Positions 5,615 through 13,427 of a DNA stretch of 26,988 bases are shown piece by piece. Both the position numbers and the translations under genes were made by a program. The number at the start of each line of letters is the position of its first letter. The first letter of the stretch is position 1. The notes beneath the pieces are model-generated. The model was not told the origin of the DNA. It worked only from the letters and a program-made list of their open reading frames with translations, and did not search any database. The stretch is from a virus: the IMG/VR virus record IMGVR_UViG_3300043427_002112, positions 1 through 26,988 of that record; one strand, given 5' to 3'.

Positions 5615-5807
5615 ATTTATCTCCTAGGTATTCGAGTGAAAAAACATCATGCTCTGGAATATTTGGATCTAACCATTCACTAAATTCTAATTGAATTGCG
5701 TGTGCATTCTCATACTCATAGTCTTCATTTTGCTCACAAAGATGATGAATACGATCAACCGCCCAATCGTGAGAATTTCTAAGAGTTTGTTCCAGTAACG
5801 TCATCAT
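5604..5807 (-). CDS. unknown small acidic protein
   Basis: 67 residues from the ATG at 5807 (a second ATG follows at 5804; AGAAAAG lies upstream). A longer ORF to 5873 exists but has a weaker start. The product is acidic and helical (TLLEQTLRNSHDWAVDRIHH ... EFSEWLDP). It overlaps the end of the SegE-like gene upstream by 29 nt and the peptidase gene downstream by 11 nt. No family recognised. Confidence 0.6.
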   Translation of the reverse strand: MMTLLEQTLRNSHDWAVDRIHHLCEQNEDYEYENAHAIQLEFSEWLDPNIPEHDVFSLEYLGDKYED

Positions 5808-6222
5808 AATAATCTTTTCTAAAATATCGGGAGAGAATATTTGAATTATAGTACGCTGGAACTCCGGAGTCAAGTGATTCGGTCAGTACATTATTTAGAA
5901 AAAGTTGTTTTGTTTCTTCAAAATTACATTTGCCTTTTGTTTTATGAAGACTTATAATTTCTCTATTGAAAAACTCTTTACCATATTTAATTACATCTTC
6001 CTTCAATTCGGGGCAAGAACCATAATAATTTTTCCAATCAGATTCTGTCTTTACTTTTCTCTTCTTTCCTTTTGGGGTTCTGAACTGCCAAAAGTACTTT
6101 CTACCAATATATTTCCTATTTGTTGTAGAGCAAGAAATGAGATATACAAAACCAAAATAATCTTGAATATGAGAAGACTCAAAAATTTCTCCATTATATT
6201 TCCAAGGGTTCTCATAGCTCAT
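5779..6222 (-). CDS. SegE-like GIY-YIG endonuclease
   Basis: A 147-aa protein with a compact GIY-YIG nuclease fold: GFVYLI at residues 24-29, KYIGRK at 37-42, then DWKNYYGSC (62-70), a GKEFFNREI helix and a conserved Glu in CNFEETKQ (near 102). The pattern resembles the SegE-like GIY-YIG domain of T4 phages. No extra DNA-binding domain is visible, so it is close to a minimal nuclease. It has its own GATAAATA late core 21 nt upstream and a terminator just before that. A homing function is inferred. Confidence 0.8.
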   Translation of the reverse strand: MSYENPWKYNGEIFESSHIQDYFGFVYLISCSTTNRKYIGRKYFWQFRTPKGKKRKVKTESDWKNYYGSCPELKEDVIKYGKEFFNREIISLHKTKGKCNFEETKQLFLNNVLTESLDSGVPAYYNSNILSRYFRKDYYDDVTGTNS

Positions 6223-7941: not shown

Positions 7942-8101
7942 AAGAAACATCATTAGTTTTTGTATCTTTCCAAACATATGAGTAATCGTGATCTCCAAAA
8001 AGGAAATCATCGTATTCTGCTGCTTCTTTGAAGGCGTTCAGGAGTTCCTGCTCACACCATTCATCATAATTGGAATCCTGAGAAAGTATCTTTGGCAACA
8101 T
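7940..8101 (-). CDS. 53-residue acidic protein
   Basis: ATG at 8101 overlaps the stop of the upstream gene by one base (TAATG). The 53-aa product is acidic and rich in aromatic residues (SNYDEWCEQELLNAFKEAAE, then YDDFLFGDHDYSYVW). A terminator follows immediately, its stem starting within the stop codon. Coupling and the terminator support a real gene; no function recognised. Confidence 0.6.
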   Translation of the reverse strand: MLPKILSQDSNYDEWCEQELLNAFKEAAEYDDFLFGDHDYSYVWKDTKTNDVS

Positions 8102-8514
8102 TAGATTATGTTAAGTCCTGGTTCTAATAATTTATACTCTTTTCCATCATATACAACCCCAGAGTAATATTCTGTAGTATTCATAACGGAAAATATATTA
8201 TATTCTCTACCATCTTCAAATGGTGTTATATCAACCAGATCTCCAAAAGTATTTCTCCAGATACTGTGATATATCGCACATCCATAAGTATTATCATCAA
8301 TATCTGTAATCAAATAGTATCCACTTATCTTCTCCCCACCATAAGTGTGTACATGGTGATTTACATTATTATGACAGTTTGCATCAACACATAATGGTTT
8401 TTTAATAACTGGCACCTTTAATAAAGTGGAAGAAAACTTACAATACTCTTGAAGTTTTATCACACACTCATCTTCAGGTAATGATATTCTAAATTTTCTC
8501 AATTGACCATCCAT
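8101..8514 (-). CDS. unknown conserved-looking protein
   Basis: 137 aa from the ATG at 8514 (AAGAAAAA just upstream; a longer ORF to 8553 runs into the homing endonuclease gene). It is a compact globular sequence with several Cys and His residues (LCVDANCHNNVNHHVH), then GGEKISGYYLITDIDDN, AIYHSIWRNTFGDLVDITPF. The Cys/His set could bind metal and the alternating pattern suggests an alpha/beta enzyme fold, but no family is assigned. Its first 26 nt overlap the end of the GIY-YIG gene, so it lies just behind an invading element. Confidence 0.65.
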   Translation of the reverse strand: MDGQLRKFRISLPEDECVIKLQEYCKFSSTLLKVPVIKKPLCVDANCHNNVNHHVHTYGGEKISGYYLITDIDDNTYGCAIYHSIWRNTFGDLVDITPFEDGREYNIFSVMNTTEYYSGVVYDGKEYKLLEPGLNII

Positions 8515-9103
8515 TTTTTCTTGGTCCTTTTCTTTCATAAAGTATTGCTGCATTCATTGTTGCATAAGAAATATTTTGAGATTTACAAAATTTCTTTAAT
8601 CCACCAACAATAATATATTCTTTATTTTCTGGAGAAATGATTTTCCAAGTTTTAGAGTTTGGATTATCTTTTCCAAATTTTGGTGCTCTATTTTGACTTA
8701 TTTTATTTCTTGTTTCTTGTGAAAGTTTAACGCCATATCTTGGATTATTTTTACCAGCAACCTTTTCACTTATTCTTTTCTTTGCTTCTTCGGTGTGTTT
8801 TTTTCCACCAAAACCTACTGTTTTTTGTCCTCCAGGTTTTCCTTCACCACCAAGATTTTGATTTAATAAAACTCCACCATCACACTCTCTTTTCCAAAGT
8901 GCTATATGTTTTATTTCTAACTCTATTGCTTCTTCTTTAGATAAACTAGATTTCACAACCCATCTTCTTTCTCTTGGTGGTAATAGATTTGCCCCATTAC
9001 TTCTCAAATGTTTTGCGTGTATTCTTCTTGGTTTCCCATATCCAACATAAAAGGGAGAACTAAAGTCCTCCCTTAAGTAGTAATAAAGAATATAGTTATT
9101 CAT
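8489..9103 (-). CDS. GIY-YIG homing endonuclease downstream of nrdB
   Basis: A 204-aa protein. Residues 4-30 hold the GIY-YIG core (YILYYYLRED ... FYVGYGKPRRIHAKH), with a later Glu-rich helix (EEAIELEIKHIALWKRE) expected to carry the catalytic Glu. Residues about 100-150 contain two or three NUMOD3-type DNA-binding repeats (KKHTEEAKKRISEKVAGKNN, LSQETRNKISQNR), then a helix-turn-helix-like tail (LKKFCKSQNISYATMNAAI). It lies just after nrdB and resembles T4 Seg/Mob enzymes. A late promoter in the loop of a 12-bp hairpin controls its start. The cleavage target is likely nearby sequence in phages lacking the gene (inference). Confidence 0.9.
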   Translation of the reverse strand: MNNYILYYYLREDFSSPFYVGYGKPRRIHAKHLRSNGANLLPPRERRWVVKSSLSKEEAIELEIKHIALWKRECDGGVLLNQNLGGEGKPGGQKTVGFGGKKHTEEAKKRISEKVAGKNNPRYGVKLSQETRNKISQNRAPKFGKDNPNSKTWKIISPENKEYIIVGGLKKFCKSQNISYATMNAAILYERKGPRKNGWSIEKI

Positions 9104-9158
9104 TTTAAGACTGAACTTATCTATTATTATTTATATAATACACTATTTCAGTCTTAAA
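9104..9158 (-). promoter_or_regulatory. 12-bp inverted repeat enclosing a late promoter, abutting a homing endonuclease start
   Basis: TTTAAGACTGAA (9104-9115) and TTCAGTCTTAAA (9147-9158) are perfect complements over a 31-nt loop. The 3' arm on the minus strand ends exactly at the ATG of the GIY-YIG gene, so a read-through nrdB transcript would hide the translation start. The loop holds TATAAATA (9128-9135), so a late transcript starting near 9122 lacks the 5' arm and cannot form the hairpin. Confidence 0.7.
9128..9135 (-). promoter_or_regulatory. late promoter core in hairpin loop
   Basis: Minus strand TATAAATA, identical to the T4 late consensus, 24 nt upstream of the GIY-YIG start codon at 9103 and inside the loop of the 9104-9158 hairpin. 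Confidence 0.65.
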
Positions 9159-9163
9159 GTCAA

Positions 9164-10306
9164 TTATAACTGGAATCCAGAAAAAGTATCTTTTGTGACA
9201 TCCTGTTTAATTCCACCAACAATATAAGACTGAACTTGCGTTTGTTGAGGTGCCACTTGAAGTCCTTTAGAAGAAATCCAATGTTCCGTCCAGGGAAGGG
9301 GATTATTCTTTGCTGGAATATCATAAAGTGGGCGAAGACCAATCGCCTTCATTCTACGATTTGCAATCCATTCAACATACTGTTGTAGTAGTTTGTCATT
9401 TAGACCAATCATAGAACCATCCTTGAACAGATACTCTGCCCAAAGTTTTTCCTGATTGACAGCATTCTCAAAGGTCTTGTAGACCCACTGCTCTTCTTCT
9501 TTGGCAATTCTTTGCATCTCAGGGTCATCACCTTCTTTCCACTTATTCAGAATGTTTTGAGTAATAACCAGATGCTGATTCTCATCTCTGGCAATTAGTG
9601 AGATGATTTTTGCACTTCCTTCCATAAGTTTGAGTTCGCCAAATGCAAAACTGCAAGCGAAACTGACGTAAAAGCGAATACCTTCAAGAATATTAACGTT
9701 TGCAACTGCTCTAAAGAGCTTGCGCTTGAGTTCATATCTTTCTGCCTGTGCGTAAGGAACTTGTTCTTGGGCGTGTTTCCAAAGTTCAGAAGTTCCATAA
9801 TGTTGGGCACTATTGATGAAATCATTGTATGCCTCAGTCACGCTGACAGCACGTTCCATAATACGATCCTCACGGAGAATCGTATCAAAGACTTCAGATG
9901 GGTCTGAATAAACATTCTTGATGATATAAGTGTATGAACGGGAGTGGATCATCTCCATAAACTCCCAAACTTTCATACATGCTTCTAGTTCGGGAAGGGA
10001 GCAGTATGGAGCAAATGCCATACCAGGACCACGACCTTGAACAGAATCAAGCATCACCTGATACTTCAGGTTACTAGTAAAAATATGCTTTTGTTCTGGA
10101 CGAAGAGATTGATAATCTCCCCTATCTTTTTGAAGGGAAACCTCTTCAGGTCTCCAGAAATATCCAAGTTGCTGAGTTGTTAGTTTGTCGAAGATTGGAT
10201 ACTTGTAAGAATCATATCTTTGAATTCCTAATGGTTGTCCAAAAAACATCGGTTGCTTTTTGGTATCTACCTCCTCAGAATTGAAAACGGTCATTGACTG
10301 AACCAT
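9164..10306 (-). CDS. nrdB: ribonucleotide reductase class Ia, beta subunit
   Basis: A 380-aa protein that makes and holds the diiron-tyrosyl radical needed by NrdA to reduce ribonucleoside diphosphates to deoxy forms. Visible ligands and radical site: D87 in MLDSVQ, E118 and H121 in EMIHSRSY with radical Y125, Glu in NILEGIRFYVSF, and EXXH in ARDENQH. Length is normal for phage NrdB. AGAGGA eight bases before the ATG at 10306 supports this start; an in-frame ATG at 10345 also has a ribosome-binding-like AGGAAG and would add 13 residues. Homing endonuclease genes lie on both sides, separating it from nrdA. Confidence 0.97.
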   Translation of the reverse strand: MVQSMTVFNSEEVDTKKQPMFFGQPLGIQRYDSYKYPIFDKLTTQQLGYFWRPEEVSLQKDRGDYQSLRPEQKHIFTSNLKYQVMLDSVQGRGPGMAFAPYCSLPELEACMKVWEFMEMIHSRSYTYIIKNVYSDPSEVFDTILREDRIMERAVSVTEAYNDFINSAQHYGTSELWKHAQEQVPYAQAERYELKRKLFRAVANVNILEGIRFYVSFACSFAFGELKLMEGSAKIISLIARDENQHLVITQNILNKWKEGDDPEMQRIAKEEEQWVYKTFENAVNQEKLWAEYLFKDGSMIGLNDKLLQQYVEWIANRRMKAIGLRPLYDIPAKNNPLPWTEHWISSKGLQVAPQQTQVQSYIVGGIKQDVTKDTFSGFQL

Positions 10307-10390
10307 ATTCTTTTCCTCTAAACCTGTTTTAAATCTAAATGTCATAATTCTTCCTACTAAACTAACCAACACTTATTATATTTAATGAAG

Positions 10391-11074
10391 TTATATTTTA
10401 ACATAACTCCACCTATATCCTCTACAGTGATTAAATTTTCCTTCACAGGTATATTTAATATTTGAAGGATTTGTTTCTACAAATTTAGCGGCGTCACTAA
10501 TAGATTGAAACTCTCTTAAAAAGTTTCCTTCAATATCATACTGAAATACTTTGGTTCTTTTTATGTTTGGATTGTTTTTTAGTGTTTGAGAAGTTTTAGA
10601 TTTACTTTCCTCTTTATGTGATTTTCCAGCAAATCCACAAGGAGATGGTTGTCCCTTTCTCATTTTACTCCACTTTTCTTTTTGTTCTTCGGTATGTGTT
10701 TGATTGTAGAATGGATTTTCTTCTTTAATAAATTTACCTTTTCTTTTTAATGACAATAGTTGTTTCGTTTTTTCTGTATGAGAATACCCAAGCATACCAC
10801 CATCACCACCAAGAGTTTGATTATATTCTGGTTTTAATTTAGAAATCCAAAACATTTCTCTAAAACCTAAATTATCTTCACATTTTTCAATTTCTTCAAT
10901 AATAAAATTATTTTTTCCATACTTTCTAATTGCCCGATGAAGATATGTTGTTGAACTTCTTTTAGTGGCATCATAGCAGTGACTGTAAAATCTTTTTTTC
11001 AAAGAGTTCAATGTCTTTCCAACATAAGTTTTATTATTGATTTTATTGGTTATGAGATAAATGCGTCCAGACAT
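10391..11074 (-). CDS. GIY-YIG homing endonuclease between nrdA and nrdB
   Basis: A 227-aa protein with a textbook domain order. Residues 3-20 hold the GIY-YIG core (GRIYLITNKINNKTYVGKT) with R28 and H32 in the next helix; the catalytic Glu is probably in FREMFWISKL. Residues about 95-160 carry NUMOD3-type repeats (SHTEKTKQLLSLKRKGK, THTEEQKEKWSKMRKG), and residues 172-227 a NUMOD1-like helix-turn-helix (KVFQYDIEGNFLREFQSISD ... GYRWSY). T4 also has a mobile endonuclease gene (mobE) between nrdA and nrdB. The late promoter is the loop of a perfect 11-bp hairpin immediately upstream. Confidence 0.93.
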   Translation of the reverse strand: MSGRIYLITNKINNKTYVGKTLNSLKKRFYSHCYDATKRSSTTYLHRAIRKYGKNNFIIEEIEKCEDNLGFREMFWISKLKPEYNQTLGGDGGMLGYSHTEKTKQLLSLKRKGKFIKEENPFYNQTHTEEQKEKWSKMRKGQPSPCGFAGKSHKEESKSKTSQTLKNNPNIKRTKVFQYDIEGNFLREFQSISDAAKFVETNPSNIKYTCEGKFNHCRGYRWSYVKI

Positions 11075-11084
11075 AGATATTATT

Positions 11085-11116
11085 AAAACCTATTACTATT
11101 TATAATAATAGGTTTT
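11085..11116 (-). terminator. 11-bp hairpin after nrdA with a late promoter as its loop
   Basis: AAAACCTATTA (11085-11095) pairs perfectly with TAATAGGTTTT (11106-11116), leaving a 10-nt loop that contains TATAAATA (11097-11104). On the minus strand it starts 10 nt after the nrdA stop codon and ends GGTTTT, so it can act as a terminator or translation block for read-through RNA. A transcript started from the loop (near 11091) begins inside the 3' arm and cannot fold it. Confidence 0.65.
11097..11104 (-). promoter_or_regulatory. late promoter core in hairpin loop
   Basis: Minus strand TATAAATA, identical to the T4 late consensus, 22 nt upstream of the GIY-YIG start codon at 11074, forming most of the 10-nt loop of the 11085-11116 hairpin. 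Confidence 0.65.
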
Positions 11117-11126
11117 TACACTTTTG

Positions 11127-13427
11127 TCAAATAGAGCAACTATCACAGGTTGTTTCGTCAGCATCAGAAAGTTCTTGAAGAATTGATTGAAGATCCTGTT
11201 TTGGTTCTTCTACTACTTCATCAGTTTTATGGTCATAAGTATTTTGATAATATGCTGTTTTGTGTCCCAGACGATAAGTTTCAAGCATATCGTGTGCCAT
11301 TACACTAACAGGAACTTCATTATCGGGATAATTTTCTGGATTATAGGACCAGTTTCCAGAAATCGCTTGATCGAAGAACTTCTGCATAACTGCAACAATG
11401 TGAATATAACCACGATTGCTAGGCATATCCCAAAGAAGCGTATAATTGTTCTTAAGAGTTTGATAACCAGGAACAATTTGCTTAAGAGGACCTTTCTTCG
11501 ACTTCTTAATGGACAAGTACCCGCGAGGCGGTTCGATTCCATTGGTTGCATTTGACACAACGGAACTGCTCTCCGAAGGCATCTGTGCGGACAAAGTGCT
11601 GTTCCGTACTCCGTACTTCTTAACACGCTCCCGTAGTAATTCCCAATCATATTTCAGTTCGTTAGGTACAATTTCATCAACATCTTTTTTGTAGGTATCA
11701 ATTGGAAGAATACCCTGCCCATACTTGGTTCTGTGAGAATATTCACAAGCACCCTTTTCTTCAGCAAGATTGACAGTTGCTCGAATAAGATAATACTGAA
11801 ACGCTTCTGTAAGATCATGGACTAGTTGCCAAGCCTCCTGGTCCCCATAGTTTGCCCCGTGCTTGGCGAGATAGTGTGCCAGACCAATATATCCTACCCC
11901 AAGCGAACGACGTGCCCTGGTGGCAATTTCTGCTGCTTTAACGGGGTATCCCTGAAAATCAATAAGTTCATCAAGACTCCTAACAGCAAGATCGCAGAGA
12001 ACCTCAAGATCTTCATTATCCCTAATTTTTCCAACGTTAATAGCACTAAGAATGCAGAGAGCAATTTCCCCATTTGGATCATCAATATGTTGAATTGGTT
12101 TTGTGGGAAGTGTAATCTCCTGACACAAATTACTCATCTCAACTTTGTCCATAAAGGAAGAGTGAGAGTTGCAGTGGTCGATATTCATAATGTAAAGACG
12201 ACCAGTTTCAGCACGTTCTTTTAGAAGGTCCAGAAAGAGTTCTTGAGCGCCAATAGTTTTTCTTGGAATAGACTGATCTCGTTCCGCAGCAACATACAAC
12301 TCGTCAAATGCATCAGTCCCAAAAGCATCATAAAGGCCTGGAACTGAGTGTGGAGAGAAGAGAGTGATTTCTTCGTTACGGATAAATCGTTCATAGAACA
12401 ATTTGGAGATTTGGATAGAATAGTCTAACTTACGAACGCGGTTGTCTTCAGTTCCTTTATTATTTTTCAGTACTAGGATGTCTTCTATTTCTTGGTGCCA
12501 GATAGGAAAGTGAACTGTAGCAGAACCACCTCTGATGCCGTTTTGAGTGCAGCATCGGACAGTTGCCTCAAACTTCTTAAGGAAGGGGACAACGCCTGTG
12601 TGTTGTACCTCTCCACCTCTGATTTTAGAGTTGATACCACGGATTCTGCCTGCGTTAATACCGATGCCAGCCCTTTGTGCGACATATTTACCAATAGCCA
12701 TATCGCTGCTAAAGATACTATCGAGGGTGTCATCAACATCAACGAGAACACAAGATGCATATTGACGAAGTGGTGTTCGCACTCCTGCCATGATTGGTGT
12801 GGGGATGTTGATTTTGTGTTTGCTGATTGCGTCATAATACTTCTTAACGTAATCTAACCGTGTTTCTTTGGGATACTTGGAGAAAATAGTAGCGGCAATC
12901 AAAAGATACATAAACTGAGGGGTCTCATACATAACACCAGAACTCCTATCTTGCACAAGATACTTATCGACTACCTGACGAAGACCCGCATAGGTAAATA
13001 GATAATCACGCTCATGATCAATGAAGGATTCTAATTTTTCAAAATCTTCTTTAGTATAAAGATTCAGAATTTCCTGATCATATACACCTCGTTCAACACA
13101 ATTGCGAGTATGTTGAAGAACAGTTGGACACTCATACATACGACCGAACAACTGCTTGCGGAGAGCGAACAGAAGAAGGCGAGCGGCAACAAACTGATAG
13201 TTGGGATGGTCAAGGTCAATAAGATCGCTTGCAGAGCGAATTAGGATCTCCTGAACCTCTGCCGTAGTAATGCCATCATAAAACTGAATACCAGACTGCA
13301 TTTCAACCTGAGATGCTGATACACCTGCTAGGTCTTTACAGGACTCTTCCACCATAACGTGGAGTTTATTGAGATCAAGGGGTTCGGTTTTTCCATCTCT
13401 TTTTACGACTTTCGTTCCGTTGCTCAT
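11127..13427 (-). CDS. nrdA: ribonucleotide reductase class Ia, alpha subunit
   Basis: A 766-aa protein, the catalytic large subunit reducing NDPs to dNDPs. An ATP-cone-like N-terminus (VVKRDGKTEPLDLNKLHVMV) is followed by the barrel with the redox cysteine C226 in YASCVLVD, the radical-site motif NLCQEI (N433, C435, E437), the partner cysteine C458 in ALCILSAINVG, and SNATNGIEPPRG. The C-terminus has the thioredoxin/glutaredoxin-accessible CDSC pair. It is full length and uninterrupted, with no intron or intein. The ATG at 13427 overlaps the primase stop as ATGA; GGAA lies upstream. It is separated from nrdB by a homing endonuclease gene. Confidence 0.98.
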   Translation of the reverse strand: MSNGTKVVKRDGKTEPLDLNKLHVMVEESCKDLAGVSASQVEMQSGIQFYDGITTAEVQEILIRSASDLIDLDHPNYQFVAARLLLFALRKQLFGRMYECPTVLQHTRNCVERGVYDQEILNLYTKEDFEKLESFIDHERDYLFTYAGLRQVVDKYLVQDRSSGVMYETPQFMYLLIAATIFSKYPKETRLDYVKKYYDAISKHKINIPTPIMAGVRTPLRQYASCVLVDVDDTLDSIFSSDMAIGKYVAQRAGIGINAGRIRGINSKIRGGEVQHTGVVPFLKKFEATVRCCTQNGIRGGSATVHFPIWHQEIEDILVLKNNKGTEDNRVRKLDYSIQISKLFYERFIRNEEITLFSPHSVPGLYDAFGTDAFDELYVAAERDQSIPRKTIGAQELFLDLLKERAETGRLYIMNIDHCNSHSSFMDKVEMSNLCQEITLPTKPIQHIDDPNGEIALCILSAINVGKIRDNEDLEVLCDLAVRSLDELIDFQGYPVKAAEIATRARRSLGVGYIGLAHYLAKHGANYGDQEAWQLVHDLTEAFQYYLIRATVNLAEEKGACEYSHRTKYGQGILPIDTYKKDVDEIVPNELKYDWELLRERVKKYGVRNSTLSAQMPSESSSVVSNATNGIEPPRGYLSIKKSKKGPLKQIVPGYQTLKNNYTLLWDMPSNRGYIHIVAVMQKFFDQAISGNWSYNPENYPDNEVPVSVMAHDMLETYRLGHKTAYYQNTYDHKTDEVVEEPKQDLQSILQELSDADETTCDSCSI

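Follow-up and report, generated by a model that had tools for sequence, protein, structure and literature searches.

How might a homing endonuclease gene that directly follows nrdB in a cyanophage be held back until late in infection? The window, that is, the whole stretch of 26,988 nt analysed here, comes from a T4-like cyanophage and covers part of its genome; nrdA and nrdB are encoded on the minus strand. The 60-nt gap between nrdB and the ORF at 8489–9103 (minus strand) holds both an inverted repeat and a late promoter octamer. We refer to this ORF as HEG-A.

A late promoter in a hairpin loop ahead of HEG-A

The features around the gap are as follows.

9164..10372, minus strand: nrdB (Pfam PF00268, E=7.5e-55); the listed start is GTG, and the true start may be internal
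9147..9158, minus strand: 5′ arm of the hairpin, TTTAAGACTGAA, which would occur only in RNA read through from nrdB
9128..9135, minus strand: T4-type late promoter octamer TATAAATA in the hairpin loop, with a predicted start near 9122
9104..9115, minus strand: 3′ arm of the hairpin, TTCAGTCTTAAA, directly before the HEG-A ATG
8489..9103, minus strand: HEG-A, putative free-standing GIY-YIG homing endonuclease of 204 aa with a NUMOD3 motif (Pfam, PHROG, motif residues)
8101..8553, minus strand: companion ORF of 150 aa, overlapping the 3′ end of HEG-A

The arms at 9104–9115/9147–9158 form a perfect 12-bp inverted repeat with a 31-nt loop that holds the late promoter, just as an earlier sequence-only reading had described. 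The same reading placed the hairpin at the HEG-A ATG. The helix does adjoin the ATG, which begins at 9103, but the ATG itself lies outside the helix and pairing extends beyond the 12 bp, since inner pairs resume beyond an internal loop. The stem folds with −21 kcal/mol (z = −4.9) on the plus strand, and this stem also forms on the coding strand. A first-order Markov model built from the local sequence yields at least 12 paired bases around a TATAAATA in 0.015% of trials (~1.5e-4). A search of 8400–11400 against Rfam gives no match.

The octamer is positioned 32 nt before the HEG-A ATG, and the published late promoter consensus of cyanophages is NATAAATA (PMC2984593). The window has five TATAAATA octamers on the minus strand, each 30–42 nt ahead of an ORF start, and the octamer is therefore a credible late promoter. 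Elsewhere in the window, an HNH endonuclease-like gene (284–880) lies among tRNA genes, with tRNA-Asn directly upstream, and has its own TATAAATA promoter at 904–911 without an enclosing hairpin.

HEG-A encodes a putative homing endonuclease, as judged from matches to Pfam NUMOD3 (E=8.7e-13) and PHROG 314 homing endonuclease (E=2.2e-15) and from the GIY-YIG residues Y19-x-G21, R27, E63, and N81, which are invariant or nearly so in 26 relatives. The assignment to the GIY-YIG class rests on these residues, because the Pfam GIY-YIG model PF01541 gives no match and the AlphaFold model is poor (pLDDT 60). A sequence search of the PDB returns no credible relative, and the annotated phage records searched hold no close copy (best ~45% identity). 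The companion ORF, whose sole match is a weak one to an uncharacterised PHROG (37148), apparently travels with HEG-A in a cassette in many relatives.

We propose that HEG-A, as a selfish homing endonuclease gene, is very probably under a transcription-coupled translational lock. The transcript of nrdB, the upstream gene, would read through into HEG-A, so that the nrdA–nrdB read-through RNA would carry both arms. The stem would then form directly against the AUG and hinder ribosome loading. Late in infection, a gp55-type RNA polymerase would start within the loop, near 9122, and the resulting mRNA, with a leader of ~20 nt, would lack the 5′ arm. HEG-A would thereby be translated only once replicated recipient DNA and the recombination machinery are available. 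Because no clear Shine-Dalgarno sequence is found ahead of the ATG, what the stem hides is something we infer: it covers the ribosome-binding region instead, and may work as it does in T4-type genes.

Conservation and recurrence of the enclosing hairpin

A search of IMG/VR yielded 80 fetched loci with HEG-A homologues of 64–100% identity. A hairpin enclosing the promoter before the start codon is present in all 80 (40 distinct sequences when compared), as is a recognisable nrdB tail upstream. Exact TATAAATA octamers are present in 78 of the 80, and the spacing from octamer to ATG is held tightly at 21–27 nt. When 30 distinct leaders are aligned by sequence, 92.9% of the cells are paired. Two-sided changes affect 6 of the 14 stem pairs; they fill 12 cells, whereas shuffles give 3.1, and this count is matched in 0 of 500 shuffles. 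For example, GACTGAA/TTCAGTC is replaced by AACTGAA/TTCAGTT, ACCGAAC/GTTCGGT, or ACTGAGG/CCTCAGT. The sequence-only reading had expected the arms to be complementary wherever the gene is present. No homologue with the gene and non-complementary arms occurs among the 80, and the arms covary significantly.

The same operon contains a second case, in the interval between nrdA and nrdB.

11106..11116, minus strand: 5′ arm of the second hairpin, AAAACCTATTA, between nrdA and HEG-B
11097..11104, minus strand: late promoter TATAAATA in the 10-nt loop of the second hairpin (sequence scan)
11085..11095, minus strand: 3′ arm of the second hairpin, TAATAGGTTTT (pair conservation in homologues)
10391..11074, minus strand: HEG-B, second GIY-YIG homing endonuclease, 227 aa (Pfam GIY-YIG 2.5e-10, NUMOD1, NUMOD3)

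HEG-B, which does match PF01541, is preceded by AAAACCTATTA - ttaTATAAATAg - TAATAGGTTTT, a leader unrelated in sequence to the HEG-A hairpin but of the same design. The hairpin recurs in the 77 loci that were fetched and examined, where one variant of the octamer occurs, and 99.2% of pair cells are kept in 22 distinct homologues. Covariation at HEG-B alone is not significant, the changes being too few. The chance of this hairpin is 1e-4 by the modelling used for HEG-A. HEG-B, a new case here, would follow the logic of HEG-A with an unrelated hairpin. A third GIY-YIG gene within the 27 kb encodes a SegE-type protein (5779–6222; Pfam PF19835, E=4e-52).

To see how far the arrangement extends, we surveyed five cyanophage genomes in full and a sixth in part, with 196 NATAAATA sites upstream of 186 ORFs. 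For the null, the upstream and downstream parts of different sites were paired, which places the 99% level at a score of 22. Eighteen ORFs score at least 22, and 17 of them are endonuclease-like: Pfam or PHROGs assign them to the GIY-YIG, HNH, or endonuclease VII type, apart from a few recognised by motif pattern alone. Among the low-scoring ORFs, at most 30 of 131 are endonuclease-like, an upper bound obtained by summing family hits. The association is strong (Fisher's exact test, 4e-9), although this value overstates the number of independent events, because the genomes are few, several carry related endonucleases, and the score is our own. Some endonuclease genes have no stem, and the rule is thus not universal.

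The hairpins of the surveyed endonuclease genes often have different arms from one another. Distant endonuclease genes of S-SRM01, B23, S-B68, MA01, and S-CREM2 have long stems of other sequences, and several of their loops hold a terminator-like stem together with the late promoter. The arms are unrelated between endonuclease genes, which suggests that the signature arose more than once. The loci L178, L179, L176, and L185 (S-SRM01), whose hairpins likewise enclose a terminator-like stem and a late promoter, share their outer arm ends (TTGTGT...ACACAA or CTGA...TTAG); these ends may mark a shared portable module. The timing of homing endonucleases has so far been studied on a few T4-like genes, and the hairpin-nested late promoter is apparently commoner in cyanophages than those few cases implied. 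As a signature, the combination of a start codon, a strong inverted repeat at it, and a late promoter enclosed by that repeat marks almost nothing but endonuclease genes, among them poorly annotated ones.

We computed the energy needed to keep the start region (−15 to +12) unpaired in read-through and late RNAs. The mean cost is 14.3 kcal/mol for read-through RNA versus 3.9 kcal/mol for late RNA in 42 distinct HEG-A homologues, 14.4 versus 4.9 kcal/mol in relatives of HEG-B, and 13.9 versus 4.5 kcal/mol in the surveyed endonuclease genes. The corresponding means for 162 control late promoters are 7.7 and 5.3 kcal/mol. For HEG-A of the window itself the difference is modest (9.8 versus 5.6 kcal/mol), as weak pairing between the late leader and early codons is possible. 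The earlier suggestion that a late promoter and a hairpin time a free-standing gene draws support from the 80/80 retention, the covariation, and the opening costs, all of them computed from sequence.

The hairpin, the enclosed promoter, their conservation, the covariation, and the recurrence on other endonuclease genes are found at the sequence level, and other explanations for them can be weighed. The inverted repeat could be a DNA operator, a palindrome over the late promoter to which the endonuclease or another dimer binds, so that the gene represses itself as I-TevI does. The promoter does sit between the arms, and two-sided changes suit a palindrome as well as a stem. Counts of G-U versus A-C mismatches, used as a strand test, are mixed (8/14 for HEG-A, 16/4 for HEG-B, 9/4 in the survey) and leave this point undecided; we rejected them as proof that the RNA strand matters. 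Moreover, the 3′ arm has 13 nt (AAGTTCAGTCTTA) in common with nrdB 9224–9236, recalling the resemblance between the operator and the homing site of I-TevI. However, this identity, present in the window, is not kept in all relatives, and carriers without the motif in nrdB (e.g., L034) keep the arm. The arms are wholly different between endonucleases, and their spacing varies among relatives and, among unrelated genes, from ~10 to 75 nt, so widely that no single dimer would span all of them alike. We consider an operator unlikely.

The position of the hairpin directly after the nrdB stop codon would also suit a role at the 3′ end of the nrdB transcript, as a stem-loop that terminates or stabilises this RNA; any effect on the endonuclease would then be incidental. 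But no U-run follows the stem, and on that ground we rejected it as an nrdB terminator. In addition, sampled empty alleles, in which nrdB runs into an overlapping gene, have no such hairpin; equivalent hairpins elsewhere follow gp43 (S-B68) or hypothetical genes (MA01, S-CREM2) and often enclose a separate terminator-like stem. A role in serving nrdB is therefore quite improbable. Functionless complementarity is conceivable in a region as A+T-rich as this one, but it would have to produce two hairpins with chances of 1.5e-4 (HEG-A) and 1e-4 (HEG-B), and is contradicted by their conservation and their enrichment on endonuclease genes, and already by the compensatory changes; we regard its probability as negligible. 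A translational lock on read-through RNA remains our preferred reading.

The cassette at the nrdB junction

Among the 80 fetched loci carrying the gene that lies next to nrdB, 63 have an empty allele, in which nrdB runs into the next gene without a cassette. HEG-A is, by this comparison, a putative free-standing homing element with an empty allele at the same site. The empty site, GATGTTACCAAAGATACTTTCTCAGGATTCCAATTATGAT, encodes both the end of nrdB (...DVTKDTFSGFQL*) and the start of the next gene (MLPKILSQDSNYD). In the window, this 39-nt overlap occurs twice, flanking the cassette of hairpin, HEG-A, and companion ORF.

8063..8101, minus strand: original copy of the nrdB/next-gene overlap, which now serves the next gene alone, as its 5′ end; 38/39 nt identical to an empty site (L247)
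9163..9201, minus strand: second overlap copy, serving as the 3′ end of nrdB; 33/39 nt against the same set of empty sites (local alignment)
9224..9244, minus strand: nrdB codons QTQVQSY (ETEVESY in empty alleles), candidate altered or protected target site (comparison of carriers with non-carriers)

The cassette is positioned exactly between the two copies, and nrdB and the next gene therefore keep complete ends. It appears, as a new observation here, that the cassette invaded the overlap and duplicated the 39 nt, leaving both genes intact. Displaced nrdB tails similar to that of the window are found in ~16–20 distinct HEG-A loci, and the distance to the downstream copy is the same in many relatives, about +1002. 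Downstream of HEG-B, a few loci (L117, L131, L141, and L147) likewise contain a displaced copy of the 3′ end of nrdA, which suggests that HEG-B, too, inserts with a replacement gene tail.

In nrdB, 20–40 nt before the junction, carriers and non-carriers differ. EVESY is encoded in none of the 80 carriers versus 61 of 64 non-carriers, and QVQSY in 54 of the 80 carriers versus none of the 64 non-carriers. In distinct nrdB tails, EVESY occurs in 0/24 carriers versus 7/9 non-carriers (Fisher 8e-6), an association inflated by the shared ancestry of the carriers. The split suggests the EVESY site as a candidate cleavage target of HEG-A, and its simplest reading would be co-conversion of a protected site. 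The nrdB locus is a clear, testable case of homing, with carriers and empty alleles in related phages and a candidate target, and shows a neat way to keep two overlapping genes intact after an insertion. In a wider proposal, the hairpin-nested late promoter would be the standard way in which cyanophages time free-standing homing endonucleases and would have been built independently, and at nrdB it would be accompanied by a re-created 39-nt overlap and a self-immune recoded nrdB tail (EVESY to QVQSY); in our judgement, this could go either way.

Relation to known hairpin-timed genes

The combination of a hairpin and a late promoter has been described for I-TevI, mobE, and segB (PMC2988022, PMC3014915). 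In the open-access literature, most subscription papers lying outside the search, we found no description of hairpin-timed endonuclease genes in cyanophages; a study of nuclease genes located where phage genomes exchange segments (PMC10448857) mentions neither promoters nor hairpins. The sequence-only reading had cited I-TevI as precedent. The mechanism is indeed described for I-TevI (PMC2988022), but it is not the sole precedent: T4 segB and Aeh1 mobE are free-standing, and the mechanism proposed for HEG-A is not new in kind.

Aeromonas phage Aeh1 mobE is like HEG-A in being a free-standing gene in the nrd region with a hairpin over the translation start and a late promoter (PMC2988022, PMC3014915). 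It is an HNH homing endonuclease gene, whereas HEG-A appears to be of the GIY-YIG type, and its hairpin sequesters the RBS (PMC2988022, PMC3014915), whereas HEG-A has no clear Shine-Dalgarno sequence. In addition, the mobE insertion splits nrdA, while here nrdA and nrdB are intact and the nrdB/next-gene overlap is duplicated. T4 segB is likewise a free-standing seg-type endonuclease gene with a predicted late promoter and an inhibitory RNA structure (PMC2988022), but differs in locus, lying in the tRNA region according to a reference title in PMC3014915. In our T4 scan, the 90 nt before mobA, mobB, mobC, mobE, segA, segF, and segG contain no late octamer.

For I-TevI of the T4 td intron, and also for I-TevII and I-TevIII, the late RNA lacks the 5′ part of the inhibitory hairpin (PMC2988022), as predicted for HEG-A. 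I-TevI is intron-encoded, and protection of splicing, one rationale there, does not apply to HEG-A. By our stem score the sites also differ, with 12–17 at these T4 sites and 20–36 at the cyanophage endonuclease sites. In T4 genes e and soc, a hairpin blocks translation of the long early RNA and a late promoter lies upstream of the RBS (PMC3014915), much as proposed for HEG-A; our scan recovers soc, with 11 bp. These are lysis and capsid genes, however, and not mobile elements. By its sequence, HEG-A resembles the T4-type genes in having a late promoter immediately upstream and, at the translation start, a hairpin with its 5′ arm ahead of the predicted late start. It has no clear Shine-Dalgarno sequence sequestered in the stem, a deviation that it shares with the segD-like seg43 of Aeromonas phage 25 (PMC2988022).
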